Below are positions 5,827 to 64,000 of a stretch of 64,000 nucleotides of DNA, in pieces. Each line of letters opens with the position of its first letter. The stretch's first letter is position 1. This stretch comes from Thelephora terrestris (lineage: Eukaryota > Basidiomycota > Agaricomycetes > Thelephorales > Thelephoraceae), in contig WIUZ02000006.1 in assembly GCA_015956445.1 (NCBI GenBank), positions 1,178,001 through 1,242,000 on the forward strand, written 5' to 3'. The position numbers and the translations under genes were made by a program. The notes beneath the pieces are model-generated. The model did not search any database, was not told where the DNA came from, and saw only the letters and a list, made by a program, of their open reading frames with translations.

Positions 5827-6303
5827 CGTCGGGAAACCATAAGCTCAGTTGAGAATCGTGGGCTTCGGGTGAACTTGGGAAACAGACGGAATGAACCCGA
5901 GAGCCTTCAATTATGGCCCGATGGGGTCACAAAGTCGAGATCGGTGACGAGGTCGCTGGATTCGCGATCTACGGAAGAGTCCGAAGGTTGGCTGCGATCG
6001 GCTCGGTGCCGTGAACCAGTGATCGGCACCAACGTCAGGGGAGAGAGGAGAGGGGAGGCTAGCTGGTGTGACCATCACCCCTCTTGTTTCTCGTCGCCCA
6101 TCTCACTCTCTCTTCCCTCGCTCGCAACATCTGCCCACAGTTCTTAAGTAGTATATTGCTTCCTTCACCTGTCCAGTCAGAATTTTCACTTGTGAGCGGC
6201 TCCTTCTAGGCTCTGTGTTCTACTGAGCGAGTGCTTGGTTCTACCCAACCCACACTCAGCATCGCACTACTTGTCGCAGGCCGCTCCCTCGTGTCAACCT
6301 TGG
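5827..6303. other. Intergenic region between the J protein and F-box gene 1
   Basis: About 480 bp between two divergent starts. Open frames here have no recognisable composition or motif. The right half is pyrimidine-rich, typical of fungal 5' flanks. I see no RNA gene or repeat; it probably holds both promoters. Confidence 0.5.
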
Positions 6304-7532
6304 ATGTCGGATCCACGACTACCACCAGAGATCCTCGACTACATTGTCGACTTTCTCCACAACAAAACTTGGTGGCTCAAAAGGTCCTGCCTTGTCGCCA
6401 AATCGTGGGTTCCTCGCACGAGGAAACACCTCTTCAACGAGATCGTAATCGTGTCCCTCAATAGCCTCGAGGCGTGGTGGAAGGTTTTCCCTGAACCAAA
6501 TAGCTCGCCTGGACATCACACCCGCTCCCTGTTCTTTCTTTCTGTGTACTTTATCTTCCCTGAGGCTGCGGGAGGGTCCATTTTGGTCCGCCCGTTTCCT
6601 AACGTCGTGCGATTGGTGATCTCGAGCAGTAAGGATATCTCGCACGTTCGCCTCCTTCCATAAATTCTCACCGGTTTCTCGAATTCACGCAGCTTGGGAA
6701 CTCCCCGCCCTTACAATCTCCCGATTCTGCGAACTCATCTGTTCCCTGCCCCTTCTTGAGGACGTGGAGCTCGAAGCTGACGGGATAGAGAAAGACGGCG
6801 ACGACGGTCCCGTATTCCAACCTCGAGCCTCGCCCCCGCTGACCGGAACCCTTTTACTCAATGTGTCCGGAGGGATGGAACACGTCGCTCGCGGATTGTT
6901 GGCCTTATCCAACGGCATCCACTTTCGGAAATTCTTCTGCACCTGGCATCTCGAGGAAGACCATCAATGGGTAGCGGCTTTGGTAGAGAGGTGTTCTCAT
7001 ACCCTTGAATACTTTGAAATCTATCGCAAAGGTCCGTTTCTTCCGCTTCCGTGATGGCGCCAGCGTCTGACTTGCGCTCGCGGTAGACCATTCCTCAGCA
7101 GCTTCGATCGACTTGTCCAACGCGACGAAGCTCAGAGAGGTGGCTTTCTGGTTTGACTTCGACGCCAACTGGATCACACACACGCTCAAAACCATCTTGC
7201 CTGAACACGGAGATCTACGAAAGATCTCGATATACATCAATCGGTCTTTTGACGGTTCTGCCGATGACCCCGTAAATTCAAAGATGACTTTCAGAGAAGA
7301 GGTTCATAGGCAGTGGATGGACCTCGACGACCTTCTCGTCCAGCTCTGGGAATCGCATTCGGTTCGCACCAAACTCATAGTGGAAGGGAAGCCAGGATGG
7401 GTGTACATAGTCGCTGCAGGCTTGTTGCCAAAGATAACGAAAAGAGGGGATAATCTAGGCTGGAAAGCAGCCTCGAATTCAGAGCGAATTTGGGAGAGGA
7501 TGCGAGGGAGGGAACTGCCGTGGGAGTACTAG
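6304..7532 (+). CDS. F-box protein, copy 1 of a local duplicate pair
   Basis: Exons 6304-6628, 6693-7031 and 7087-7532 encode 369 aa. The F-box is at the N-terminus (LPPEILDYIVDFLHNKTWWL, then CLVAKSWVPRTRKHLF), which would dock to Skp1 of an SCF ubiquitin ligase. The rest resembles the fast-evolving leucine-rich region of agaric F-box proteins, with NVVRLVIS, LPLLEDVELEADGI, LVERCSHTLE and ATKLREVAFWF. No substrate can be inferred. Introns are 64 and 55 nt. Copy 2 at 27284-28473 has the same exon lengths for exons 1 and 2 (325 and 339 nt) and the same splice sites; copy 1 keeps a longer C-terminus ending ELPWEY. An in-frame ATG at 6235 is not conserved in copy 2, so 6304 is preferred. Confidence 0.75.
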
Positions 7533-8070
7533 GATAATCCAGCTAGTGACTTACGCCGGTGCATAACAACATCTTCTGGTGCTGTGACCCTGGAACGACA
7601 AAAACAATGATCATCACCATCGACGAGCGGCATGGCTCACAACCGTCCCAGGGTGACGGAGAACCGCGTGTACATATCGAACTTATGCAACCCCCCCCCC
7701 TGCATTTTCTTGCTCTCCTTTTCCCCAAAAATTCCGCTGTCGTCCCGCGATTCAGGCCACCACATCTACAATAAACCGCAAGGGGCTGTGAGTCTCCGCC
7801 GGTCACGCAGGTTCTAATCGAACAGACAACGAGGCTCCCCTCCCTCCCGGTCGTGGGGATTACTGCTCGCTATTCAGGTTAAAATCATCACCAACTTCAT
7901 CAGTCTCGTTGTACATTACTATAGTCCCTCAAGCCCCCCGAAGCAAGCATTCATCTTTGCTGCCAGTGCCAGATCTATGACCCAACTCGTGGTGCTGTCG
8001 TCTTCTATTCAAATGCACACATTGTGAGTTGTAATAAGTAATAAGGGAACAAGGCTCAGTGAACGACTGG
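6304..8070 (+). repeat. Segmental duplication block A, left copy
   Basis: F-box gene copy 1 plus about 540 bp of 3' flank. The partner is 27284-28965 in the same orientation, about 21 kb away. Similarity by eye is high throughout, with small indels, and continues into intron and 3' sequences, so this is DNA-level duplication and not only protein similarity. Confidence 0.8.
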
Positions 8071-9162
8071 CGTGTGGCTCTGCCCGGACCCCAACGGACC
8101 GCCCGATCGAGCCCATATCTGGCTGACTCTTGCTGAGATGTGCCGTAGTAGGCTATACCGGAGCGCTCCCCACCAAAGCAGTTCTCCCTGCATCCCCCTC
8201 CCCTGCTCTGCTTCGAATTTTAGGCTGGATTCCAGCCTAGGTTACCGGTCCCCTTCTAGGAATCGCTCCCTCGATCGCGCCATCCTTGCCTGTGAATTCG
8301 AGGCTGGATTCCGGCCTAAGCTACACAACAGCCTTATCGAAGTGGTCATCGAAGGATCGAGGACCCAGAAGGAATAGAAAACTTATTCCTCTACTCAAGG
8401 TGTCCTCATAGGCCCGATTCTTTTCGTAAGGGTGCAAGTCTCTGCACAGGTGAAGAAACCCACTCCCGAGCCCAGCAGCAGGAGTCTCACAAAGGAGACA
8501 CGAGAATGGCCGTGAGTTTCGTCCTGCCGTACCATGGTCTCTATCTTTGACGATATGATCTACGCAGGAACCGAACGAACTCAACGCCAACAATCAATCA
8601 CACGCATTCCCTTGCCCATACCCTCCACTGGTTCGACCAGAGTCCATCCCGTTCGTGACAGATATCTTCCGATTGAAGAGAGGGCCTGGTAGCGGACTGA
8701 AAGTCGTCTCTGACGATGACCTTTCTGCTTGCACCAATGCCTTCTCGCGGTTGTCACTCGGCCCGCCATTTCCCCAGAGAGCTTTTGGAACCGATCTCTA
8801 CGATTAAGTGACAATCAGATGTCGTCGTTTTTCCCTCTATAAAGTAGTTTAGACATCTCGGACTGTGCTCAGATCGAACTCTGGAGCGTATTGCGGCTGC
8901 CACACCCGGGAACATGTCCAGGTGCAAGGCACGTCCGTATCACATATGAAATTTGGGCGCTTCAGAGCGATACGTATTATGACGGCCTCTCCGTTGAAAC
9001 CCATAATCAGTGACGGTGATTATTTATCTTTGAGGGAGGTCGTTCCCTTCCCATGCACACTCAAAGGTCTCCGAACGCATCGTGTGCTTAAAAGTAACAT
9101 GTATCGAATTCACCTTAATGTACATCGTGTTTTCTTACGCCCTATCACCTTGTCGACTTTCA
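7533..9162. other. Gene-poor spacer, left copy of duplicated flanks
   Basis: No gene is supported here. 7533-8070 has a related copy after F-box copy 2 (28474-28965), including a C-homopolymer followed by TGCATTTTCTTGCT and the phrase TACTGCTCGCTATTCAGG. The sequence near 8080-8110 recurs near 29270. From about 8868 the sequence is the left partner of an inverted copy at about 30880-31142. Two copies of the near-palindrome AGGCTGGATTCCAGCCT (one with a change) lie at about 8222 and 8301. Confidence 0.6.
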
Positions 9163-9500
9163 CTACATGAATTTACCGGCCTGCGGGAAGTTGTAAATGC
9201 GCGAGCCCATCGGTCCTTACGAAGCACTCACCAACGACATGAGACCGCCCATTCCTCCGCCTCCACCTCCACCAAGCTTGGACTGGACCATGAGTTTCAT
9301 GATGGTCATCCCAGCGCTGTTGATGGCATCTTGCTTGTTTCCTGAAGCGGAGCCTCCGGAAGAATCGAACAACTTGGAAGCCTCGGCCATGGCCATCGAG
9401 ATCAAGTCGGATTGGGAGCTCCCTCCTCCTCCTCCTCCTCCTCCTCCACCGGTGAATTGCTTCAAGACCTACACGGCGGTGATGTCGCACGTGAGCGATT
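8868..9500 (+). repeat. Segmental duplication block B, left copy
   Basis: Covers the last two exons of the beta-flanking-type gene and about 300 bp of its 3' flank. An inverted, diverged copy is at about 30500-31142. Shared pieces include ACCTGGACATGT, AATCACC followed by TCACTGATTA, and the exon phrase GGCGGTCTCATGTCGTTGGT when read in the other orientation. Confidence 0.75.
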
Positions 9501-10476
9501 GAGAGGGGAAGAGTGCATCGGGCCGGACCATACCTGCATGGCGGCGGCGCTGCCCATAGACTTGGAACTCATTCCATCAGAAGATCCCCCCTGATAGATC
9601 TTCCTGTGAGCTTCGGTCACCTCCTCCTCATCGATCGGTTCCTGATGCTACGAAATCGCCCCACGGCCTCGTCAGCCAAGAGGACTCAGGAGGTTATAAT
9701 GCTAAGCCTCACCTTGTGGGAGTTGGACTGGACGTGGCTGAGGGCGGAAGAGAACATGGAAGAGTCCTGGGAGGAACCATGGGCAGAAGCCTTCTTAACG
9801 ACCTCTTCCTCGTTGACTTCGCGATCCCGTCAGTCAAAACGACCGCGATCTGGGAGGAGAGGGGGAGCTACGCACAGAAGGACTGGTTCTCTCCTCCACC
9901 GCTGCGGTTGTGAGGGGAGTTGTACTCCTGGCCTCCAGTCTTGGAGTATCTCTGACCGCTATCGTCTCCATCGTCGTCATCGCCCCTACCACCACGGCGC
10001 TGAGGTTGATTATAACCCTGGCCTCCGGTGTTGGAATACTTTTGACCGCTATCGTCTCCATCATCGTCATCTCCCCTACCGCTACGGCGTTGAGGTTGAT
10101 TATAACCCTGGCCTCCGGTGTTGGGGTATCTCTGGCCGCTATCGTCTCCATCATCGTCGTCTCCCCTACCGCCGCGGCGTTGAGGTTGATTATTACCCTG
10201 GCCTCCAGTGTTGGAGTATCTCTGACCACTATCGTCTCCATCGTCGTCATCTCCCCTACCGCTGCGGCGTTGAGGCGGATTATAACCCTGACCTCCAGTC
10301 TTGGAAGTTCTCTGATTACTATCGTCCCTATCATCTCCATCATCTCCATCGTCCCCGCCACTCGGGCCTGGCGACGTCAAAAAACGTAAGATTCACATAG
10401 AGAATAATTGCAGTTTGCAGATCTACGAACGGCTGGATTTTGAATAGGCACTGAGGCCTTGCTGAGCTAAACTCAT
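9163..10476 (-). CDS. Beta-flanking-type protein (glycine-rich, DUF7721-like)
   Basis: Exons (minus strand) 10476-10431, 10367-9876, 9816-9713, 9647-9534, 9468-9232 and 9180-9163 encode 336 aa. The start MSLAQQGLSAYSK, a Gly/Asp/Gln-rich middle, EEEVVKKASAHG, DSSMFSSALSHV, SSKSMGSAAAMQ, LIGM-like LISMAMAEASKLFD, ASGNKQDAIN, MTIMKLMVQSK and the tiny last exon ending GKFM match what I recall of agaric beta-flanking proteins, named because they border the HD mating-type locus in many mushrooms. The function is unknown. Residues about 30-165 are near-perfect 30-residue tandem repeats (see separate entry). Five short introns (51-65 nt) are all GT-AG. A decayed inverted copy of its 3' half lies beside HD2 at 30493-30826. 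Confidence 0.75.
9931..10345 (-). repeat. 90-bp coding tandem repeat, about 4.5 copies
   Basis: Units of 90 bp start near 9931, 10021, 10111, 10201 and 10291 (the last incomplete). Each encodes 30 residues with GGQGYN, QPQRR, GRGDDDDGDD and SGQRYSNT in order. Unit length is a multiple of three, so copy number can vary without loss of frame. The charge pattern alternates Arg-rich and Asp-rich blocks, typical of disordered proteins. Confidence 0.9.
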
Positions 10477-26706: not shown

Positions 26707-27283
26707 GGTCGTTGGTTTCTGAGGAAGGTTCTTGTCGATTGCCACCTCCGCAGTGGCTGGTTTATATATGATTTTGAATGTTGAACAAGAACATCCGACG
26801 GCATCGTTGCTTACCAAATCTGAGGTTCGTGCACATGTTTTGTGCGACCGTCTCGGGGAGTACTGCGCCATTTAGGATGGTAAGTTGATCATCAGACAAG
26901 GTACTTACTCGCCAGCGTGACTTCATCAAACGTTTCTCCACATATGTGTGGCATGTGCAAGGGCCGCAGCCGAAGGCCGTGCCAGCATGTCCCCTGTACA
27001 ACGCAGGGAAATGCAAAAATAGATTTGAGGCAACAAGAGGAGGGCGAGGGCCGCGGAAGAGAGCTGTAGTGTCGGACATCCCAAGAGGCCAGATCAACAC
27101 ATCTCCACGAAACGAGCAAGACAAGGAGAAAGGCTGGGATGAACAAGGCACGTCAACCGAGGTTCTTCCCGACCCCCCGTCAGCATTCTATGGGCGCTTG
27201 AGTGACAGAGCTCAGAGTCGCCATTGGCATCAGCCAGCATCAGCCCCACCGGCGGCCACGTGTGTGGACCACTCATGACCACG
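26707..27283. other. Intergenic region, divergent promoters
   Basis: About 580 bp between the NTF2-like gene and F-box copy 2. Two overlapping frames on the minus strand lack recognisable features. Similarity to the copy-1 5' flank stops near the start codon, so the duplicated block begins at about 27284. Confidence 0.45.
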
Positions 27284-28473
27284 ATGTCGAATGCACGACT
27301 ACCACAAGAGATCCTCGACTACATCGTCGACTTCCTACACAACGAACCTTGGTGGCTCAAAAGGTGCTGCCTTGTCGCCAAATCGTGGGTTCCTCGCACG
27401 AGGAAACACATTTTCAACAAGATCGACATCGCGTCCCTCGATGACCTTGAGGCGTGGTGGAAAGTTTTCCCGGATCCAAACAGTTCGCCTGGACATTACG
27501 CCCGCACTCTGTTCTTCCTCTCTGTGCGCTCTATCTTCTCCGGGGTTGCAGGAGGGTGCAGTTTGGTCCGCCCATTTTCTAACGTCGTGCGATTGGTGAT
27601 CTCGTGCGGTAAGGACATCTCGCACGTTCGCTTCCTTCCATAAATTCTCACTGGTTTCTCAAATTCACGTAGCTGGCGAATTCCCGACCTTTACATCCTC
27701 CCGATTCCTCGAACTCATCTGTTCCCTGCCCCTTCTTGAGGACGTGGAGCTCGAAGCTGACGGGATAAGAGAAGACGGCGACGACGGTCCCGTATTCCAG
27801 CCTCGAGCCTCGCCCCCGTTGACCGGATGCCTTGCACTCAATCTGGCTGATGGGATAGAGCCCGTCACTCGCGGATTGTTGGCCTTACCTGACGGCATCC
27901 ACTTTCGCCAATTCTTGTGCACCTGGCGTTACGAGGAAGAGCATCAGTGGGTAACGGCTCTGGTGGAGAGGTGTTCTCATACCCTTGAATCCGTTCAAAT
28001 CGATCGCAAAGGTCCGTTTCTTCCGCTTCCGTGAGGGCGCCAACGCCTGACTTGCATTTGCGGTAGAACATTCCTCAGCAGCTTCAATCGACTTGTCTAG
28101 CGCGACGAAGCTCAGGGAGGTGACGTTCTGGTTTGACTACGAAGCCGGCTGGATCACAAACGCGCTCAAAACCATCTTGCCTGAACACAGAGATCTACAA
28201 GAGATTTTGATATGCGTCTATCCGTCTCGTGACTCTTCTGCCGATGACCCCGTAGATTCAAAGAAGGTTGTCGGAGAAGAGGTTTATGAGCGGTGGATGG
28301 ACCTCGACGACCTTCTCGTCCAGCTCTGGGAATCGCATGCGGTTCGCACCAAACTCCTAGTGGAAAGGAAGGCAGGAAAGGTGTACAGAATCGTAACAGG
28401 CCTGTTGCCAGAGATGATGGAGAGGGGGATAATCCAACCAGAGACTTACGCCGAGCATAATAACATCTTCTAG
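27284..28473 (+). CDS. F-box protein, copy 2 of a local duplicate pair
   Basis: Exons 27284-27608, 27673-28011 and 28067-28473 encode 356 aa. It is a close relative of the gene at 6304-7532 with the same intron positions and exon 1 and 2 lengths. The F-box reads LPQEILDYIVDFLHNEPWWL, then CLVAKSWVPRTRKHIF. Later blocks are LPLLEDVELEADGI, CSHTLESVQIDRK and ATKLREVTFWFD. Against copy 1 about 70 bp are missing near the end, so the reading passes into what is 3' flank in copy 1 and ends AEHNNIF. Both copies remain open, so both may be functional SCF adaptors. Confidence 0.73.
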
Positions 28474-28965
28474 TGCTGCGACCATGGAACGACAGATAAA
28501 AATATGATCATCACCACCGACGAAGCTGCATGGCTCACGACCGGCCCAGGGTAACCGTATACATATCGAACTTATGCAGCCCCCCCCCTGCATTTTCTTG
28601 CTGTCGTTCCCCCCCTCAAATTCCGCTGTCGTCCCGCGATTCAGGGCACCATATTTACAACAAACCGCGAGGGGCTGTGAGTATCCGCCGGTAACGCAGG
28701 TTTCAATCGAACAGACAACGAGACGTCCGACCTCCCTCGCGGTCGTGGGGATTACTGCTCGCTATTCAGGTTAAAATTATCATCAACTTCATCAGGCTCG
28801 TTGTACAATATTATAGTCCCCCGAAGCCCCTCGAAGCAAGCGTTCATCTTTGCTGCCAGTGTCAGATCTATGGCCCAACTCGTGGTGCTATCGTCTTCCA
28901 TTCAAAATGCACACATTATAAGTTGTAATAAGTAGGGGAGCGAACAAGGCTCAGTGAACGACCGC
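27284..28965 (+). repeat. Segmental duplication block A, right copy
   Basis: Direct-orientation partner of 6304-8070, containing F-box copy 2 and its 3' flank. Shared landmarks are the C-homopolymer with TGCATTTTCTTGCT near 28580 and GATTACTGCTCGCTATTCAG near 28750. Confidence 0.8.
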
Positions 28966-30492: not shown

Positions 30493-30826
30493 CGGCTAGG
30501 CTCACGGGAAGATCCATAGCTCAACCGCTCACTGCCGTGTAGTTCTTGAAGCAATTCGATGGGGGAGGAGGAGCTCCAAAGCCGGCTTGGTCTCCCGAGC
30601 CATGGCTGGGGATATCAAGTCGTTTGATTTGTCTGGAGGCTCGGCTTGAGAAAACAATTGAGACGTTATCAACAGGGCTAGGCTGACCGCCATGAAACTC
30701 ATGGTCCAAGCCAAACCTGGCGGGGACGATGGAGGAATGGGCGGTCTCATGTCGTTGGTGAGTTCTTCGTAAGGACCGATGGGTTAGTGCGTAAACAACT
30801 TCTTGCAGGTCAATAAATTCATGTAG
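30493..30826 (+). pseudogene. Decayed 3' half of the beta-flanking-type gene
   Basis: The part matching exon 3 is reduced to GCTCACGGGAAGATCCAT and is joined to an intron remnant. Exon 4 (about 30543-30757) is shortened, with several small indels, and its frame is lost. The splice donor GTGAGT after TCGTTG and the last exon (30809-30826, VNKFM) are intact. Exons 1 and 2 with the 30-residue repeats are absent. Orientation is opposite to the intact gene. It lies about 0.35 kb from HD2. Confidence 0.8.
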
Positions 30827-31142
30827 TCAAGGTCGACAAGATCATAGGGCATAAGTAAATACAATGTACAGTAAGCTAAAATTGATACATGCTGCTTCTA
30901 GGCGCAGGATGCGGCCGGAGCTGGCTGGGTATGCATAGGGAGCGAATGACCTCCCCAGATATAATCACCATCACTGATTACGGGGATCAACGGAGGGAGT
31001 GCTCGACAGCCGTCATAGTGTCGCTCTGGAGCGCCCACTTCCATAAGTGATACGAGCGTGTTAACACCTGGACATGTCTCCGGGTGTGGGCAGTGCAGTA
31101 TGCTCCGGATTTCAGTGTAATCACCGCCCGGGGCGTAGAAGC
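30500..31142 (-). repeat. Segmental duplication block B, inverted right copy
   Basis: Inverted and diverged copy of 8868-9500. It ends about 40 bp before the HD2 stop codon, so the breakpoint lies at the edge of the mating-type gene pair. Confidence 0.75.
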
Positions 31143-31181
31143 TGCCTCATGGAGGGAGAGTCAACGGCAACTGACAGTCAC

Positions 31182-32444
31182 TTAACCGCAAAGGTCAGTC
31201 CCAAAGTTGATATCCTGCCACCCAGACTCAGGGTAGGGTGTAAGAAATTGCTCCAGAGACAGTGCTTCAGGGAATGGGTCTTTGCGGGCAAGAGTAGGAG
31301 GGATGGGTATGGAAGGGAAATCTGGTGGCGTCGATGGCGAACTCGCTTCAGAGCCATGGTCAGACACGAGTGAGGGAGTACGACTGGCACGTGAAAAATA
31401 GGATGATTCTTGAGATTCTAGGGAGGCAGATGGATGGATTGGCGGTCGGCGGTAGGGTATGGAGCAGGCCTTCCGTCTGTTGGAGCGGGGAATTTCGATA
31501 TTTTGGGTGGGAGGTATAATGAGAGACGGGGGGGACGGTGCAGATTTCGTGGGAGATCTCTCGGAGACAGCAGAGGATGTATCGAGCATCGGCGAGACGA
31601 GGCGGGGGCGCGAAGGGGAGAGCTGGAATTTTGGTTTGGTTTTTGAAGTGGCGTGCGCGTGGGATCTCGATTTGAGTGTTTTAGAGGGCTTTGGTGAACC
31701 CTTCTGGGAAGAAGGTGGTCCAAGTGACAGCCGCGAGAGCGCATCGATGCATGCATCAAGATCATTGGAGGATGCAGCTCTCCGTTCGTAGCCGAACATT
31801 CTCTCTGACAGGGGTATATGCGTTACAAACGAAATCGACTCCGGTCGAACCGGTGGAGGGTAGGCGCAAGGGAAAGCGTGCGGCGAGCTGCTAACGCCGA
31901 ATGGAACATTGGTCTGGGAAGGAATCTGAGGTGTAGAGCATAGCGTGTCGGGATGGACTTACGAGGCCGTGCGCGCTTTCGCTCAGTTTGAAGGTATCCT
32001 CGCGACTTTGCTTGGGTGGGGGGATGGTGTTACACTTCACCTACGTGGGGAGGTTCACATGAATGAAAAAAATTAGGGCAGATGGCTTTTCACCTTTGAC
32101 TGGAAAACGGTTTTCTTGTTTCTCCTCAAGAGGGATGCCTCTGCTTTGCCTATAGTTTCTTCCCTCAATTTCGCTACGGCCTGGGTGCAAAGCGTGATGA
32201 CCGCAGTCAAAAGCTTGGACCTAAGCTCCTTGCTGCTGTAACCACGGTCATCGCTAGCGGCAATAATTGCGCTGCATGCGTGGTTGTATTCCTTCTCCCA
32301 TGCTGCCATCAAGGTGAGAGCAGCGGAGTGGTAGAGGTTGGACGCTGTCGATGCAGTTCTGTTGTCCACCCCCAGCGCAAGAAGTGTTGGTGTAAGTGGT
32401 GCTGGGAGTGGAAACGCGTTGTTCGGGAGGAATGAGGTAGTCAT
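31182..32444 (-). CDS. HD2: HD2-type mating-type protein with degenerate homeodomain
   Basis: Exons (minus strand) 32444-32094, 32040-31963 and 31913-31182 encode 386 aa; introns are 53 and 49 nt. In mushrooms the HD2 and HD1 proteins of different mates dimerise and switch on dikaryon development. The N-terminal helical part (LTPTLLALGVDNRTASTASN, LYHSAALTLMAAWEKEYNHA, KAEASLLRRNKKTVF) has the look of an HD2 specificity domain. The homeodomain should follow, but exon 2 has only CNTIPPPKQSREDTFKLSES, and no Trp codon exists in any minus-strand frame between about 31880 and 32100, so the WFxNxR helix is missing. After it, SSPHAFPCAYPPP and a Ser/Pro-rich tail are typical of HD2 proteins. The HD2 call rests on context and the flanking domains. 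Confidence 0.68.
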
Positions 32445-32661
32445 GGCTTGCGAAAAGATGATGGTGGTTGAGGGAAGGGATGGTCCTCGTAACCCTGGGA
32501 GGGAGGCAAAAATACCGACCCATTGTTCTCCTGATCTAGGTTAAGTTTCCAGATCAGGGTGGACAATGGACAATGTGATCGGGGTTTGAATTTCTGTGGT
32601 GGTGGCGACTTTCCACCGCATGTAGTTTCTCACACCACAACCCCAACTCACTCACTCAACG
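32445..32661. promoter_or_regulatory. Shared promoter of HD2 and HD1
   Basis: 217 bp between divergent start codons, the standard arrangement of agaric HD pairs. It contains the direct repeat GGACAATGGACAATG at about 32561-32575. I found no match to the GATG-N9-ACA element known from Coprinopsis HD targets. Confidence 0.6.
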
Positions 32662-34222
32662 ATGCCATACGAAAATCCGATGCTGAACCAGGATGACTTG
32701 CTCTCCGCTGCGGTCTGCGACGAGGGTAACCAGGAGACCCTCTCAGAAGTTATTCTATCCAGGCTCAACATAGTTTCTCAATATCTTGCCAACGTGGATG
32801 CGGCGGCCGCAGCCCTCACCTCGTCAACCATGTCCGAGTTTGAGGATATCTTCTCCTCCCTGAGCTTGGAATCATTTGCCACGCCGACCCAGCCTGTGGC
32901 CGTCGTTTCTCCTACACAATGGCTACTCGACAATCTCCACAACCCATACCCGCCCGTTGCCGTTAAACACACGATGGAGGAATCACCAGAATTAGGAAAC
33001 CGCACGGTGAACGAGTGGTTCGCGAGGGCGCGTCAGAGAATCGGGTGGACTCGCCTTCTCCGCGATCGATTTGGTGGTTGTCGCTCTGCTGCGACGGATG
33101 CAGCCTTCCGCGCTTTTGTTCGCGATGACCCCCGTTCCCCTCTTGATGCAGAACTTTGCGCTGCCTTCATGGCAGTAAAGGCCCACGCCACTCTGGTCTA
33201 TACCCCATCGTCTCCGGGCACTTTGGACACCGCGCCACGTCTGTCGCCTCAACCTCGCAGCCCATCTGCAACCCCTTCGCTGACCCATTCCGCTGACTCC
33301 GAGGATAGCGACGATAGTTCCTCTCAACCGCCACGGAAGCGAAAGCGTTCAAGTTCTGAACGTCCATCGGAACCCAGTCTAGCGTCACCACCCCCGCTTC
33401 GAAAACGTCGTTTGTGAGTAGTGCGTTTCACTTTATAGGACACGGAGTAATTTTTTGCACCATCAAGGGCACCATTCCCCGAACGAACATCAAGCCCATC
33501 CCATTCACACCCCTCAACCAGTCCCACCACCGATAGCTCTCCCCCCTCCCCTCCGCGCTCGCGGAAAAGGCGACTGTCAGAATCGAATTCCGACGAGCCC
33601 GTAGTCAAGAAACCCCGAGGGTCAGACTGGGCTCAAAGAAAGCAAACGGTCTCAGACCCTTTGCCGTTGCCTACCCCATCTTTTGATTGGGGGTCATGGT
33701 GCACTGAGGCTTTTGCCCTCCCCCCATCGGCCACCACGAATCATCCGGTCCCTGATGCTCTCGATTTTGAGCTATTCAACTTTGAGGCCTTCCCCACTTC
33801 GCAACCCACTGGTCAGTCAGATTCTCAGCCCTTCCTCCTGCAACAGTAACTAACCGATCTTCTTAGACGTTGCCAAATCAGTTGCAGATGCGCATCCCAA
33901 GTTTTCTGAACAACCAGATGCATGGCTGGACTCGCTCTTTACATCTCCCAACCAAACTGAAGACCCATTGACTACTTCGTGGGAGAGTTTCTTCAACTTC
34001 GAACTCCCATGCAACTCATCCCCTCTGCCATCATTGACCAATTCACCGTCTCCATCCACCCCTGGCGCTCATTGGACAGTTTCACCTCCAGAACCGTCGT
34101 GCTTCGAATCGTCCGAGCCACCCCTATTTGACTTTTCATCGCCATCGCTGTTCAAGATACCCACTCTATACCCTACAGAAGGCGTCCAAATCGTTGATAG
34201 CGACCCATTAATCACCTTGTAA
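32662..34222 (+). CDS. HD1: HD1-type (TALE) homeodomain mating-type protein
   Basis: Exons 32662-33413, 33468-33811 and 33867-34222 encode 483 aa; introns are 54 and 55 nt. The homeodomain covers about residues 75-130: QWLLDNLHNPYPP, with the NPYP loop typical of TALE homeodomains (94-97), then NRTVNEWFARARQRIGW. The tract after it, RDRFGGCRSAATDAAFRAFV then MAVKAHATLVY, is the conserved post-homeodomain region of basidiomycete HD1 proteins. Two nuclear-localisation-like clusters (PRKRKRS, SRKRRLS) and an acidic, Phe-rich C-terminus (DFELFNFEAF, SWESFFNFELP) suggest transcriptional activation. The position usually held by Asn 51 is Arg (122) in WFARAR. It is divergent from HD2. Confidence 0.85.
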
Positions 34223-40443: not shown

Positions 40444-42004
40444 TGTCGGACCCCAGGATTATCATTATTTATTTACGATTTTACGCACAATTTATAGTCA
40501 ACAAGTTGAACAATGGATTATTTAAATGATTAAAGAATTATTTAAGCCTGATGAGATTAGATAACAGAAAGTCTAATTATAATCCATTCTAGATAAGATA
40601 AGATAAGGATCCTACAGATTAGATCAAGAGATCAGATAGCCATGGAAAGCCCTAGAACATCATGGAACTTCCTGGAACACGCTGGAAAGTGCTGGAACAT
40701 TCTAGAAGGTGACGGAACGTCACAAATGTGATAACTTGTCACACCAAGAATGCTATGGAAGCAGATGGAACATGACGGAATATTATGGAACATTGTGGAA
40801 AGTGCTGGAATGTTCTGGAACATTCTTGTGTAAAATAGTATATATAGACCTCAACCCCACTTCTAAGAGAAGAACAGGTACCTACTGCTCAGGAGAAAAG
40901 CACAGTTTGCTCTATCCTCACATCAGCTGAGCATCTTTTTGCTCAGTGTCTCTTTTCCCCCCCCACTTTACATCTACCCCCTCTCTCTCTACATCTACCC
41001 CCTAAAGTATCTACCTCAATTCCCTTAGGACTGATTGGTTGAGTGATTTGAGCAATCACATACCATATTTTAGCCCTACCCTCTGTGAGAAGAAGTTCTA
41101 AGTCAGAAGAACTGAATAAGCTTAGTACACTTGAGACGTTGGAATCTTGGTATCTGTAGTACTAAAGTCTGAAACTTTAGGCAGATAACCCCACCTCAGA
41201 GAAGTGACTGACTGAGTGACAGCCAGATTTAGCAGTACCACAAGGACTTACGACATATTTTACGACATAGGTTTATTATCTGAAGATTATTGAAGACATA
41301 TCAGTTAGACGTACTAGACGTCACCTGCAGCAAAGTTTAGGGTATCAGTTATACCCTCCCAGTTTTACGACATATCTTGTCACCTTTACAACATATCTAG
41401 CACAGCCCCAGGTGTAAGTGTACACCTTCCCTTTTAGGTCTAGTCACACGACACAGCCTCAGCACAGCCTTAGGCATAGCCCTAAGCACAGCATCAATAC
41501 ACAGCCTCAATACACAGCCTTAGGCACAGCCCTAAGCACAGCCCTAAGCACAGCATCAAAGCACAGCCTTAGGAATTCAGCCTCAAACACACCATTTGAG
41601 CACCCCCCTCTTTCCCCCTCCCCTTTGGTCTACCCCAGTAGATCATCCCCTCCACTCTTGATCCCCCCCTTAGATCAGGAACTCCATTCCCATCAAATCA
41701 CCACCAAACCCCCACACACCAGATAAGCGTCTAATCAAGGAACAGGAACAACTGAGTGATATAGTACGTCTGATTCCCTTGGAATAATACTGAAGGACAC
41801 ACTCACAGAGTAGATCCCTCAGCGAACTCATCAGGTCCGAGAGCCGGAAAGAGGAACCCCGCTCACCCTGTGGAGTTGTTAGTCGAGTTCATAGACTACT
41901 CAACCAGCCTGCTTAGCTTCTATACACTTAGTCTCTAAGCGAACCAACTGGGTCTAGTTATCTTCTGTATAGAACATAACACTACACCACCCACGAGCAC
42001 GACA
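40444..42004 (+). repeat. 5' LTR of the giant element
   Basis: 1561 bp, TG...CA ends. It contains many repeats of TGGAACAT-like motifs in its first part, a TATATAGACC promoter-like box, and CACAGCC/TTAGG repeats later. Confidence 0.93.
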
Positions 42005-57821: not shown

Positions 57822-58298
57822 ATGCACATCATCGACTACTGTGTAGAGCCAGAAGGAATAGACCAGTATTGGACTACCTCCCTCGAACTCTATTGCTACC
57901 TCTACTACAACAAACGGGAACGGGTTCGCTTGCAGACGCTAGTCAACTTGATAGGAGAAATCGACGGACAATTCTTCCACCTCTACCACCGATGTGATCC
58001 ATTCCACCTACGCCTCAGAAAAGGACAAAGTGATCTGGAATTCCAGTACCATCTCAGAGTCCTCTTCTATTCAATCAGGATTGAGATGGTCAGGGTCTAT
58101 CCCTTGGAATGTACGTCCACCTCTATTGTGTTTACAATCAGTAAATATAAAATAATGAATCCCAGACTTGTTGGGATAATTGCGATCAGGGACGATCGTT
58201 TAAAGTTCCCCGCGGATGTCGGACCCCAGGATTATCATTATTTATTTACGATTTTACGCACAATTTATAGTCAACAAGTTGAACAATGGATTATTTAA
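57822..58298 (+). CDS. Accessory ORF c of the giant LTR element
   Basis: 158 codons, ending inside the 3' LTR. TTSLELYCYLYYNKRERVRL then IGEIDGQFFHLYHRCDPFHL parallels ORFs a and b more weakly. The C-terminal third, GIIAIRDDRLKFPADVGPQD, has no counterpart in them. Confidence 0.4.
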   Translation: MHIIDYCVEPEGIDQYWTTSLELYCYLYYNKRERVRLQTLVNLIGEIDGQFFHLYHRCDPFHLRLRKGQSDLEFQYHLRVLFYSIRIEMVRVYPLECTSTSIVFTISKYKIMNPRLVGIIAIRDDRLKFPADVGPQDYHYLFTILRTIYSQQVEQWII

Positions 58299-59777
58299 AT
58301 GATTAAAGAATTATTTAAGCCTGATGAGATTAGATAACAGAAAGTCTAATTATAATCCATTCTAGATAAGATAAGATAAGGATCCTACAGATTAGATCAA
58401 GAGATCAGATAGCCATGGAAAGCCCTAGAACATCATGGAACTTCCTGGAACACGCTGGAAAGTGCTGGAACATTCTAGAAGGTGACGGAACGTCACAAAT
58501 GTGATAACTTGTCACACCAAGAATGCTATGGAAGCAGATGGAACATGACGGAATATTATGGAACATTGTGGAAAGTGCTGGAATGTTCTGGAACATTCTT
58601 GTGTAAAATAGTATATATAGACCTCAACCCCACTTCTAAGAGAAGAACAGGTACCTACTGCTCAGGAGAAAAGCACAGTTTGCTCTATCCTCACATCAGC
58701 TGAGCATCTTTTTGCTCAGTGTCTCTTTTCCCCCCCCACTTTACATCTACCCCCTCTCTCTCTACATCTACCCCCTAAAGTATCTACCTCAATTCCCTTA
58801 GGACTGATTGGTTGAGTGATTTGAGCAATCACATACCATATTTTAGCCCTACCCTCTGTGAGAAGAAGTTCTAAGTCAGAAGAACTGAATAAGCTTAGTA
58901 CACTTGAGACGTTGGAATCTTGGTATCTGTAGTACTAAAGTCTGAAACTTTAGGCAGATAACCCCACCTCAGAGAAGTGACTGACTGAGTGACAGCCAGA
59001 TTTAGCAGTACCACAAGGACTTACGACATATTTTACGACATAGGTTTATTATCTGAAGATTATTGAAGACATATCAGTTAGACGTACTAGACGTCACCTG
59101 CAGCAAAGTTTAGGGTATCAGTTATACCCTCCCAGTTTTACGACATATCTTGTCACCTTTACAACATATCTAGCACAGCCCCAGGTGTAAGTGTACACCT
59201 TCCCTTTTAGGTCTAGTCACACGACACAGCCTCAGCACAGCCTTAGGCATAGCCCTAAGCACAGCATCAATACACAGCCTCAATACACAGCCTTAGGCAC
59301 AGCCCTAAGCACAGCCCTAAGCACAGCATCAAAGCACAGCCTTAGGAATTCAGCCTCAAACACACCATTTGAGCACCCCCCTCTTTCCCCCTCCCCTTTG
59401 GTCTACCCCAGTAGATCATCCCCTCCACTCTTGATCCCCCCCTTAGATCAGGAACTCCATTCCCATCAAATCACCACCAAACCCCCACACACCAGATAAG
59501 CGTCTAATCAAGGAACAGGAACAACTGAGTGATATAGTACGTCTGATTCCCTTGGAATAATACTGAAGGACACACTCACAGAGTAGATCCCTCAGCGAAC
59601 TCATCAGGTCCGAGAGCCGGAAAGAGGAACCCCGCTCACCCTGTGGAGTTGTTAGTCGAGTTCATAGACTACTCAACCAGCCTGCTTAGCTTCTATACAC
59701 TTAGTCTCTAAGCGAACCAACTGGGTCTAGTTATCTTCTGTATAGAACATAACACTACACCACCCACGAGCACGACA
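58217..59777 (+). repeat. 3' LTR of the giant element
   Basis: Same length as the 5' LTR and no difference found by eye over the blocks compared. It is followed directly by the CG run and GATGCAATCAC of the U1 end. Confidence 0.93.
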
Positions 59778-60941
59778 GCGCGCGCGATGCAATCACATCG
59801 CGCGAAACCTGTCACCCCACACGAAACTCCCCAATCATCTCGCACGAATCTTGTCGCTCACCTCACACGTGTTGTCCCCCACGTCGCACAAACACCCAGA
59901 CTCCTCCTGAGGGGGATTCCCGCCTTTTTTCTAATAGACCCGAAGGTAGGCAGTCTATTCTGTCAGTTTGCACACTATATAGAGGTAGTCTCGGGGCGGT
60001 ATTCCCATTTTTCTGACCTTCGGAACGGCCTCGGGACTTTCCGAGACCGTGATCCGATCAATTCTTCAGTCTTCCGCTAGATTCCGCTTAGTATTGCCGC
60101 GAATTGACATTAGAATACTCGCCGGGCGTGATATTGCCACTGAGGCTCCTGTTTTAATTAAGACTTGCTAGCATTCCTATGTTTAATTTGATCCTATGTT
60201 ATTTTTGACATATTATTGATTATATGTTTGCCCGTTTTCGGCCTTGGCCGCATCCCGTTTCGAGACATTCCGCTTCCCACTCAGTAGATAGTAACCTCAC
60301 TGCGGTTTGTCCACTTCCACCCCTTAGCATTGCTTTTATTTCTCATGTACTGAGACCATTCTATCCTGTCTGTCTAGATGTGATCCCGCCGAACACTCCT
60401 TCACCATTTCATGATAAAACAGTCAAACTACTAAAATATGTCGAAAATAACATAAGATGAAAACAAATATAAGAAGGCCGTCGTGAGTCCTAGAGGGGTA
60501 AATACATACTTGAAAATATTATAAAAGGAGTCTCAGTGGCAGTCCGACGCCCCGGCGAGTTTTCTAACGCCAATGCAACGCCAATGTTGGGCGGAATACC
60601 GAGGAATTGATCGGATCACGGTCTCGGAAAGTCCCGAGGCCGTTCCGAAGGTCAGAAAAATGGGAATACCGCCCCGAAACTACCTCTATATAGTGTGAAA
60701 ACTGACGGAATAGACTACCTACCTTCGGATCTATTAGAAAAAAGGCGGGAATCCCCCTCAGGAGGAGTCTGGGTGCTCGTGCGACGTGGGGGACAACATG
60801 TGCGAGGTGAGCAACAAGTTTCGTGCGAGATGAATGGGGAGTTTCGTGCGGGGTGACAGGTTTCGTGCGGGGTGACAGGTTTCGCGCGATGTGATTGCAT
60901 CGCGCGCGTGAGAATATTTTTTGTGCACTTCGACCGCCATA

Positions 60942-61112
60942 TACAACTAGATCCATCCGCACTTCCAAAAGCTTTGGCTTCACCTTACTGAGCACATCTG
61001 TGAGAGGGCCAAATATTGGCCGAAGAGACTCCAAAAGGGGCATTGTTGGATGTAGGTAGAGGAGACGGCCAAAGGGGGTGGGATTGCTAGGTTCATTCCA
61101 AACCCACTTCCC
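60942..61112 (-). repeat. X', inverted copy of host segment X
   Basis: 171 bp, reverse complement of about 40054-40225. It forms the loop of the U1/U2 palindrome. Confidence 0.85.
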
Positions 61113-62309
61113 TATGGCGGTCGAAGTGCACAAAAAATATTCTCACGCGCGCGATGCAATCACATCGCGCGAAACCTGTCACCCCGCACGAAACCTGTCA
61201 CCCCGCACGAAACTCCCCATTCATCTCGCACGAAACTTGTTGCTCACCTCGCACATGTTGTCCCCCACGTCGCACGAGCACCCAGACTCCTCCTGAGGGG
61301 GATTCCCGCCTTTTTTCTAATAGATCCGAAGGTAGGTAGTCTATTCCGTCAGTTTTCACACTATATAGAGGTAGTTTCGGGGCGGTATTCCCATTTTTCT
61401 GACCTTCGGAACGGCCTCGGGACTTTCCGAGACCGTGATCCGATCAATTCCTCGGTATTCCGCCCAACATTGGCGTTGCATTGGCGTTAGAAAACTCGCC
61501 GGGGCGTCGGACTGCCACTGAGACTCCTTTTATAATATTTTCAAGTATGTATTTACCCCTCTAGGACTCACGACGGCCTTCTTATATTTGTTTTCATCTT
61601 ATGTTATTTTCGACATATTTTAGTAGTTTGACTGTTTTATCATGAAATGGTGAAGGAGTGTTCGGCGGGATCACATCTAGACAGACAGGATAGAATGGTC
61701 TCAGTACATGAGAAATAAAAGCAATGCTAAGGGGTGGAAGTGGACAAACCGCAGTGAGGTTACTATCTACTGAGTGGGAAGCGGAATGTCTCGAAACGGG
61801 ATGCGGCCAAGGCCGAAAACGGGCAAACATATAATCAATAATATGTCAAAAATAACATAGGATCAAATTAAACATAGGAATGCTAGCAAGTCTTAATTAA
61901 AACAGGAGCCTCAGTGGCAATATCACGCCCGGGCGAGTATTCTAATGTCAATTCGCGGCAATACTAAGCGGAATCTAGCGGAAGACTGAAGAATTGATCG
62001 GATCACGGTCTCGGAAAGTCCCGAGGCCGTTCCGAAGGTCAGAAAAATGGGAATACCGCCCCGAGACTACCTCTATATAGTGTGCAAACTGACAGAATAG
62101 ACTGCCTACCTTCGGGTCTATTAGAAAAAAGGCGGGAATCCCCCTCAGGAGGAGTCTGGGTGTTTGTGCGACGTGGGGGACAACACGTGTGAGGTGAGCG
62201 ACAAGATTCGTGCGAGATGATTGGGGAGTTTCGTGTGGGGTGACAGGTTTCGCGCGATGTGATTGCATCGCGCGCGCGAGCATATTTTTTGTGCACTTCG
62301 ACCGCCATA
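61113..62309 (-). mobile_element. U2, inverted near-identical copy of U1
   Basis: 1197 bp with ends TATGGCGGTCG and CGACCGCCATA. It is the reverse complement of U1, differing by eye only by about one base in a C/G run. The mirror axis with U1 is at about 61027, in the middle of the X' segment. Its right junction with Y' equals the Y-U1 junction at 40407/40408 in inverted form. Confidence 0.8.
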
Positions 62310-62497
62310 CAGATCAACACATGTGTCTATGTTTTCTCTGCTGGGTGCTGGAACTATGCGCAAGCGATCGGCGTTGAGGTGATCCTCATGTTGGAGCGTA
62401 GAACTACTACCAGTTGCTTGGCGTCGATTCACCTCTAACTCAACTTGCTGTGCTTGGTGAGATTTTGCAAACATAATTGACCTGGAACACTTACAAC
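62310..62497 (-). repeat. Y', inverted copy of host segment Y
   Basis: Reverse complement of about 40224-40407, lying between U2 and U3. It ends TACAAC, which is repeated after U1 at 60942-60947. Confidence 0.85.
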
Positions 62498-63612
62498 TAT
62501 GGCGGTCGAAGTGCACAAAAAATATTCTCACGCGCGCGATGCAATCACATCGCGCGAAACCTGTCACCCCGCACGAAACTCCCCGTTCATCTCGCACGAA
62601 ACTTGTTGCTCACCTCGCACGTGTTGTCCCCCACGTCGCACGAACACCCAGACTCCTCCTGAGGGGGATCCCCGCCTTTTTCCGAATAGATCCGAAGGTA
62701 GCCAGTCTGTTCCGTCAGTTTGCACACTATATAGAGGTAGTTTCGGGGCGGTATTCCCATTTTTCTGACCTTCGGAACAGCCTCGGGACTTTCCGAAACC
62801 CGTGATCCGATCAATTCCTCGGTGTTCCGCTTAGCATTACCGCGAATTGACACCCGAAAACTCGCCAGGCTCTTGCAACAGCCTTCCTACATTTGATTTT
62901 ATCTTATGTTATTTTCGACATATCGTTGATCACATGTTCGCCTGTTTTTGGCCTTGACCGCATCCCGTTTTGAGACATTCCGCTTCCCGCTCGATAGATA
63001 ACCTCACTGTGGTTCGCCCGCTTTCGGCCCTCAGCATTGCTTTTATTTCTTATGTACTGCTGCTGAGGTTATTATATCCTGTATATCTTGATGCGAGCCC
63101 TTCGAACACTCCTTCACCAATTTATAATAAAATAATAAAATAATCTAACTACTAAAATATGTCAAAAATAACATAAGATGAAAACAAACATAGGAAGGCT
63201 GTCACGAGTCCTTGAGGAGTAAACACATATGTAAGGACTTGAAATATCATGAAAAGAGTCTCAGTGGCAGCACAACGCCCCGGCGAGTTTTCAGATGTCA
63301 ATTCGCGGCAATGCTAAGCGGAATACCGAGGAATTGATTGGATCACGGGTTTCGGAAAGTCCCGAGGCCATTCCGAAGGTCAGAAAAATGGGAATACCGC
63401 CCCGAAACTACCTCTATATAGTGTGCAAACTGACGGAACAGACTGGCTACCTTCGGATCTATTCGGAAAAAGGCGGGGATCCCCCTCAGGAGGAGTCTGG
63501 GTGTTCGTGCGACGTGGGGGACAACACGTGCGAGGTGAGCAACAAGTTTCGTGCGAGATGAACGGGGAGTTTCGTGCGGGGTGACAGGTTTCGTGCGATG
63601 TGATTGCATCGC
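62498..63612 (+). mobile_element. U3, diverged copy entered by another LTR element
   Basis: Starts TATGGCGGTCGAAGTGCAC after Y'. The inverted ends are close to those of U1 and U2 while the centre is diverged and shorter. The right end is cut at 63612, just after GATTGCATCGC, where an LTR begins. No coding capacity is seen. Confidence 0.7.
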
Positions 63613-64000
63613 TGTCGCGACGTCGAAACTCCCAATCTCCGATTCCTTCCTATTGGTCGTTCGACTCCATTGAGTTCCGGACTCTTCTTGGCCTCACGAC
63701 TGCCTCGAGGCAGCCTTCACCCTGATCACCGGACCGCCTCTATTGTTTCTCGGACATTCTTCCCCGCTTCGCACCTCCCCTCGGTGTCGAGTTAGCTGAG
63801 GTTGTAGTGAAGAGGTCTATAAGAACTCTTACTAGTCCTTCTTGGTTTACTTAGAAGCTAAGCGTTAACAACTAAGTAGGCTGGTTGAGAAGTCAGTTAT
63901 CCCGACTATCAACTCCACAGGGTGGGCGGGGTTTCGTACTTTCCGGCTCCTTGTCCTGATGAGTTCGCTGAAGGAGGTTGTAGGTCCTTCAGATGTGTTC
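63613..64000 (-). mobile_element. Edge of a second, related LTR element
   Basis: Starts TGTCGCGACG at the break in U3. Read on the minus strand it resembles the end of the LTR at 40444-42004 (shared CAACTCCACAGGGTG, GATGAGTTCGCTGA, GAAGCTAAGC). It continues beyond the window. It is a different family member, clearly diverged. Confidence 0.65.

Follow-up and report, generated by a model that had tools for sequence, protein, structure and literature searches.

The gene at the HD2 position of the mating-type locus of Thelephora terrestris has no detectable homeodomain, and it belongs to the only HD1/HD2 pair that we could detect in the genome. HD2 is normally the main DNA-holding part of the HD1-HD2 heterodimer, and the recognition motifs of HD1 proteins are often degenerate. 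By its defining domain, a classical 60-residue homeodomain with a WFxNxR motif, the gene falls outside the HD2 homeodomain proteins; its position, partner and tail make it the HD2 of the locus, minus the homeodomain. The explanation that we favour, with about an even chance of being right, is that the gene lost its homeodomain and that the haplotype acts in crosses through its HD1 and the HD2 of the mate. Coordinates below refer to the window, the whole 64,000-nt stretch of contig WIUZ02000006.1 that was analysed.

The locus is a classical HD (MAT-A) mating-type locus of an agaricomycete, which the earlier note had not recognised; it is marked jointly by the family matches of HD1, the divergent gene pair and a beta-fg-like gene (Table 1). 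HD1 has a TALE-type homeodomain (Homeobox_KN, E 3.6e-8) and a Mating_C C-terminal region (PF12737, E 1.6e-9), both over the cut-off. Its splice borders were chosen by eye (GTG...AAG and GTC...TAG), and the first acceptor, AAG, is less certain. Helix 3 of HD1 reads WFARARQR, with Arg replacing the Asn of WFxNxR; such an off-consensus recognition helix is ordinary within the known HD1 range. The basic stretches of the protein resemble nuclear signals, as judged by eye. In the published descriptions, HD1 proteins carry nuclear signals and a poorly conserved recognition motif, HD2 proteins carry a classical homeodomain, and the two pair by their variable N-termini (PMC8305134; PMC10739230). Mating_N (PF12731) gave 0 matches genome-wide and likewise 0 in the controls. 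HD1 and the HD2-position gene are transcribed divergently.

Regarding the flanking genes, DUF7721, which we take to be the beta-flanking (beta-fg) family, has two matches in the genome, both at the beta-fg-like gene about 21 kb from the HD pair. This gene spans approximately 9.2-9.8 kb, perhaps up to 10.4 kb. A TAG read through in the first DUF7721 row is probably an intron border, because the open frame 9465-9647 (E 5.9e-13) leaves it outside. An open frame adjoining the DUF7721 exons (9868-10392, minus) contains a tandem Gly/Asp-rich repeat (RGDDDDGDDSGQRY...) with an offset of about 90 bp per unit. The gene mip does not flank the pair: all nine Peptidase_M3 rows, which represent two genes, are on contig C45, and the HD pair is on C56. 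One of the two genes reads as a putative mip in translation. The same contig carries three STE3 receptor genes (G000:C45:220k-396k), with the Peptidase_M3 genes at 286k and 664k.

Table 1. Features of the HD locus and of its rearranged second copy (positions in the window)
Feature	Position	Strand	Remarks
Flanking segment, copy 1	6303-8067	plus	pieces 6303-7455 (86.7 % identity) and 7532-8067 (86.5 %)
Stretch upstream of the last exon of the relic	8340-8560	plus	weak alignment with HD2 from the end of exon 1 through intron 1 and exon 2
Decayed second HD2 copy (relic), last exon	8589-8804	plus	54.7 % amino acid identity to HD2 residues 155-218
DUF7721 exons of the apparently intact beta-fg-like gene	9531-9811	minus	E 1.7e-11 and 7.0e-5; open C-terminal exon 9223-9468
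Flanking segment, copy 2	27283-28962	plus	pieces 27283-28434 (pairs with 6303-7455) and 28427-28962 (pairs with 7532-8067)
Beta-fg-like gene, broken second copy of its 3' end	30529-30783	plus	interrupted by two in-frame stops; HD2 lies tail-to-tail with it
HD2-position gene without detectable homeodomain	31182-32444	minus	open three-exon model, 390 aa
HD2 exon 3 (C-terminal tail)	31182-31925	minus	23.8 % Ser+Thr, 39.9 % Ser+Thr+Pro
HD2 introns 1 and 2 (53 and 37 nt) with exon 2 (78 nt)	31926-32093	minus	nothing else lies at the expected homeodomain site
HD2 exon 1 (N-terminal part)	32094-32444	minus	two long helices predicted, 28-67 and 71-115
Intergenic region shared by HD1 and HD2	32445-32661		217 bp, divergent head-to-head pair
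HD1 gene	32662-34222	plus	483 aa; exons 32662-33413, 33468-33811, 33867-34222

The three exons of the HD2-position gene (32444-32094, 32040-31963 and 31925-31182, minus strand) are joined in phase 0 across introns bordered by GT...TAG and GT...CAG and give 390 codons and a stop. Exon 1 encodes 117 aa and ends in RRNKKTVFQSK. Judging from published HD2 lengths, the homeodomain would be expected to start at this exon end, which would leave about 108 aa ahead of it; this is less than the 130-150 aa published for the N-terminal parts of functional HD2 proteins, and one Agaricus HD2 with 99 aa was termed truncated (PMC8305134). AlphaFold2 was run on exon 1 as a single sequence without alignment (mean pLDDT 67.6, pTM 0.44), and the two long helices that it predicts hint at a fold other than that of a homeodomain with its three short helices. 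The frame of exon 3 stayed open in 2 of 5000 composition shuffles, and its Ser and Thr content can be set beside the 23-26 % published for the C-terminal halves of Agaricus HD2 proteins (PMC8305134). The earlier note had described an N-terminal domain and a Pro/Ser-rich tail as kept, and both are seen here, the former as a helical N-terminus in a weak model and the latter in the composition of exon 3.

No family model calls the gene an HD2; its assignment comes solely from position and layout. This leaves room for the idea that it never was an HD2 and that an unrelated gene occupied the place beside HD1. We consider this highly unlikely, given the divergent pairing at such a short distance, a beta-fg-like gene lying tail-to-tail with both copies (see below), and N-terminal helices followed by a Ser/Thr-rich tail, as published for HD2 proteins (PMC8305134). 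In Pfam the spliced protein matched DDE_Tnp_1_3 alone, below the threshold (15.0 bits against a cut-off of 27).

The homeodomain was sought by Pfam, by enumeration of splice forms and by a scan for TGG codons, and none of these detected it, which agrees with the earlier description of an HD2 without a WFxNxR helix. The gap in TGG codons reported there for about 31880-32100 is real and in fact wider, as none occurs in any minus-strand frame between those at 32244 and 31722. The accompanying claim that helix 1 is shortened has to be replaced, since nothing of a homeodomain can be recognised. Pfam searches at E <= 10, in which the HMMER filters discard most matches above approximately 0.1, found no homeodomain in seven proteins, namely the spliced HD2, two pieces of the locus in other frames and four pieces of the relic. 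We enumerated the open-frame splice forms of a bounded region, allowing introns of 35-300 nt for one intron and 35-200 nt for two, and obtained 11 one-intron and 173 two-intron forms. None of the 11 has a tryptophan in residues 81-160, the stretch inspected, and none of the 173 has one in residues 91-200. The modelled protein itself has tryptophans only at residues 49 and 379.

Two candidates for a concealed homeodomain were rejected. Residues 66-117 of exon 1 form one long helix (71-115, in the weak model) and have no Pfam match. A frame-shifted helix 3 (YLQTERKRARPRK, frame 31823-32029, minus) meets a stop right after the acceptor, takes part in no listed canonical join and has no Pfam match.

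The earlier note had also proposed that DNA binding might come from another HD gene pair. This is unsupported, as no other mating-type HD1/HD2 was found in the 40.6 Mb assembly. We searched with the Homeobox_KN, Homeodomain and Mating_C models, with the DNA pattern for WFQN[RHQK]R, and with HD1, HD2 and the relic as protein queries; their sensitivity is known from this one genome, with no positive control from another fungus. Homeobox_KN recovered two places, the HD1 of the window and a TALE gene on contig C15. The PF00046 model at E <= 10 gave 11 rows genome-wide, nine of which read as general homeodomain genes and were rejected as an HD pair: a three-homeodomain gene on C17 (four rows), two genes on C1 (two), a gene on C58 (two) and the TALE gene at C15:39141 (one). 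The remaining two rows are weak and below the cut-off (C60 and C15:155279), with no Homeobox_KN or Mating_C match beside either. The gene on C17 (G000:C17:474384-475732), which reads as three homeodomains, adjoins a pantothenate-kinase-like gene, as judged by reading the ORFs. The WFQN[RHQK]R pattern, used for the genome search for another WFxNxR pair that the earlier note had proposed, occurs in three places, all of them inside general homeodomain genes, and revealed no other pair.

Mating_C has a single match over the cut-off in the genome, which is HD1; a weak row on C12 below the cut-off was rejected because it lies inside a phosphatase-like gene according to the ORF reading. As genome queries, HD1 exon 1 matched itself only and HD2 matched itself and one relic. 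The relic matched itself and HD2, plus two further matches at E 0.15 and 1.6. The 4.2-kb neighbour of the pair is single copy, and thus no second haplotype was seen. Two scans of viral contigs resulted in no relatives of HD1 or HD2.

The relic, which the earlier note had overlooked, is a second, decayed copy of HD2 within the window. Its 64 residues at 8589-8780 (plus) align with HD2 residues 155-218; after this conserved core most of the tail is gone, and then the C-terminal FGTDL motif and the stop follow as in HD2. The C-terminal core of the two copies represents an old divergence under constraint (64 codons, dS 1.06, dN 0.31, dN/dS 0.29, bootstrap 0.13-0.57 with 990 of 1000 replicates usable). 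Its divergence far exceeds that of the duplicated flanks, as old mating-type lineages would lead one to expect.

Upstream of the core the relic aligns with HD2 only weakly. The DNA score of the whole stretch was reached in 6 of 1000 dinucleotide shuffles and 4 of 500 simple shuffles, and that of the stretch matching HD2 exon 1 alone in 167 of 500. At the protein level the comparisons with exon 1 were not significant, neither in three frames (192, 751 and 1551 of 2000 shuffles) nor in further comparisons (938 and 628 of 2000), and the same applies to exon 2 (1244 of 2000). An ungapped comparison reached in 1 of 5000 was discounted because the pieces had been picked by eye. The gap between the two flanking motifs measures 234 nt in the relic versus 246 nt in HD2. 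If the upstream motif, the weaker one, is rightly matched, a homeodomain exon would not fit next to the small exon in either copy. Pfam gave no homeodomain match in the upstream pieces of the relic (E <= 10). As neither HD2 copy has a detectable homeodomain, its loss is probably older than the split of the copies; given the weak upstream alignment, we regard a common loss predating the split as likely, not as demonstrated.

These data also bear on the idea that an assembly or gene-model error is to blame, with the homeodomain exon missing from the contig or the homeodomain too diverged for Pfam. The gene model and the contig are indeed known from the assembly sequence alone. However, the lack of tryptophan in all two-intron forms speaks against such an error, and so does the similar spacing in the relic, if the weaker motif is rightly matched; we find an error of this kind very improbable.

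The relic is part of a rearranged duplication. An inverted duplicate pairs 8784-9482 with 31205-30529 (73.6 % identical), and HD2 and the beta-fg-like gene lie tail-to-tail in both copies. Copy 1 (the 8340-8804 side) has a broken HD2 next to an apparently intact beta-fg-like gene; copy 2 (30529-32444) has an open HD2 and a broken beta-fg-like gene. The earlier note had considered a decayed pair, and decay in the surroundings of the HD2-position gene is real, as the second copies of both HD2 and beta-fg are broken. The window also contains two direct repeats of 1561 bp (40444-42004 and 58217-59777), 100 % identical, around long frames that look gag-/pol-like by eye; they probably mark a recent LTR-element insertion about 6 kb away from HD1. 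A nested family of direct and inverted repeats follows at 59778-63620, with the longer pieces approximately 81-99.9 % identical.

In such surroundings the HD2-position gene could be a pseudogene in progress, which lost its homeodomain by a recent local deletion and has not yet gathered stops in the rest. Besides the broken copies in the rearranged locus, truncated extra HD2 genes are known from Trichaptum (PMC8970355). Nevertheless, the frame is open and phase-0 joins flank the lost part, the second copy likewise lacks a detectable homeodomain, and the gene is the only open HD2 found, so we regard a pseudogene as unlikely.

Our preferred reading is a haplotype that serves as a donor of HD1. 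The HD2-position gene has lost the homeodomain and retains an open frame, two canonical introns, an N-terminal helical part and a Ser/Pro tail. Such a protein could still pair via its N-terminus but would be unable to bind DNA as HD2 normally does; a heterodimer containing it would therefore be without its main DNA-binding part. In crosses, HD1 would pair with the HD2 of the mate, which is assumed to be intact. Provided that a single compatible combination is enough and that defects in the HD1 homeodomain are tolerable, this would suffice, and the lesion could then persist. According to the published accounts, a single compatible HD1-HD2 combination does suffice (PMC5100862), and for this reason mating need not fail when one allele has lost HD2. 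The loss of single hd genes inside cassettes is described as common (PMC10739230), and a defective HD1 homeodomain as tolerable. The evidence on HD2 comes from one genome, a scope at which a damaged allele and a species trait look the same.

The species trait is the main alternative: the homeodomain-free HD2 may be kept throughout the lineage as a working subunit that, paired with HD1, contributes specificity or stability. DNA contact would then be made by the altered helix of HD1 (Arg for Asn) or by another factor, or else the large set of pheromone receptors would run mating and the HD pair would be otherwise employed. Both locus copies are without a detectable homeodomain, and yet their core shows the old, constrained divergence given above; no other HD2 was found in the genome. 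The open frame of 390 codons is also in its favour, as a neutral, substitution-only simulation kept it open in 0.139, 0.039, 0.038 and 0.004 of 1000 runs at 5, 8, 10 and 15 % change, respectively. STE3 receptor matches occur at 12 places (29 rows), nine of which have both domain ends. On the other hand, in a single genome the constraint after the loss is inseparable from the constraint before it, and the HD2 proteins of the publications consulted have the homeodomain, their main DNA-binding part. We take these variants together as possible but doubtful. It seems rather unlikely that the homeodomain-free HD2 has become fixed in the lineage as a partner-choice subunit, with control passing through the altered helix of HD1 or a third factor.

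The HD2-position gene and its locus can be set beside several known systems. The gene resembles the HD2 genes described from other agaricomycetes (Agaricus, Pleurotus and Coprinopsis) in its divergent pairing with HD1, helical N-terminus, beta-fg in the locus and Ser/Thr-rich C-terminus without a known domain, and it differs in that the HD2 proteins covered by these accounts have a 60-residue homeodomain with WFxNxR, while none is detectable here. Pycnoporus cinnabarinus is reported to have a mating-type homeodomain protein with a lost or degraded DNA-recognition part, and from Postia placenta it was reported that the HD1 motif was not found; in Pycnoporus, however, the degenerate HD1 accompanies an HD2 whose homeodomain is complete, whereas here HD2 lost it and HD1 is off-consensus as well (PMC4101180). 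The xHD2 of Trichaptum abietinum, an extra copy of HD2 in MAT-A, is truncated and decaying like the relic at 8.4-8.8 kb, but it is additional to other HD2 genes, and here we found no intact HD2 (PMC8970355). In Inonotus hispidus a usual flanking gene of MAT-A also lies on a different contig; there the displaced gene is beta-fg and here it is mip. That species has one HD1/HD2 pair and a single HD1, and the accessible text of the report does not mention a missing homeodomain (PMC12858565).

Truncated extra HD2 copies and degenerate HD1 proteins are thus already known. A genome whose only HD2 is without a homeodomain was not described in the literature available to our search, most of it outside subscription journals. 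With a homeodomain-free HD2 in its only detectable pair, the genome makes it possible to ask in a natural setting whether partner choice is separable from DNA binding, and how control of mating gets lost or moved. If the gene is only a damaged allele, it would mean that the loss of HD2 can persist in a haplotype that donates HD1. If it is true that the homeodomain-free HD2 is fixed, the self/non-self part would be split from the DNA-binding part in a natural species.
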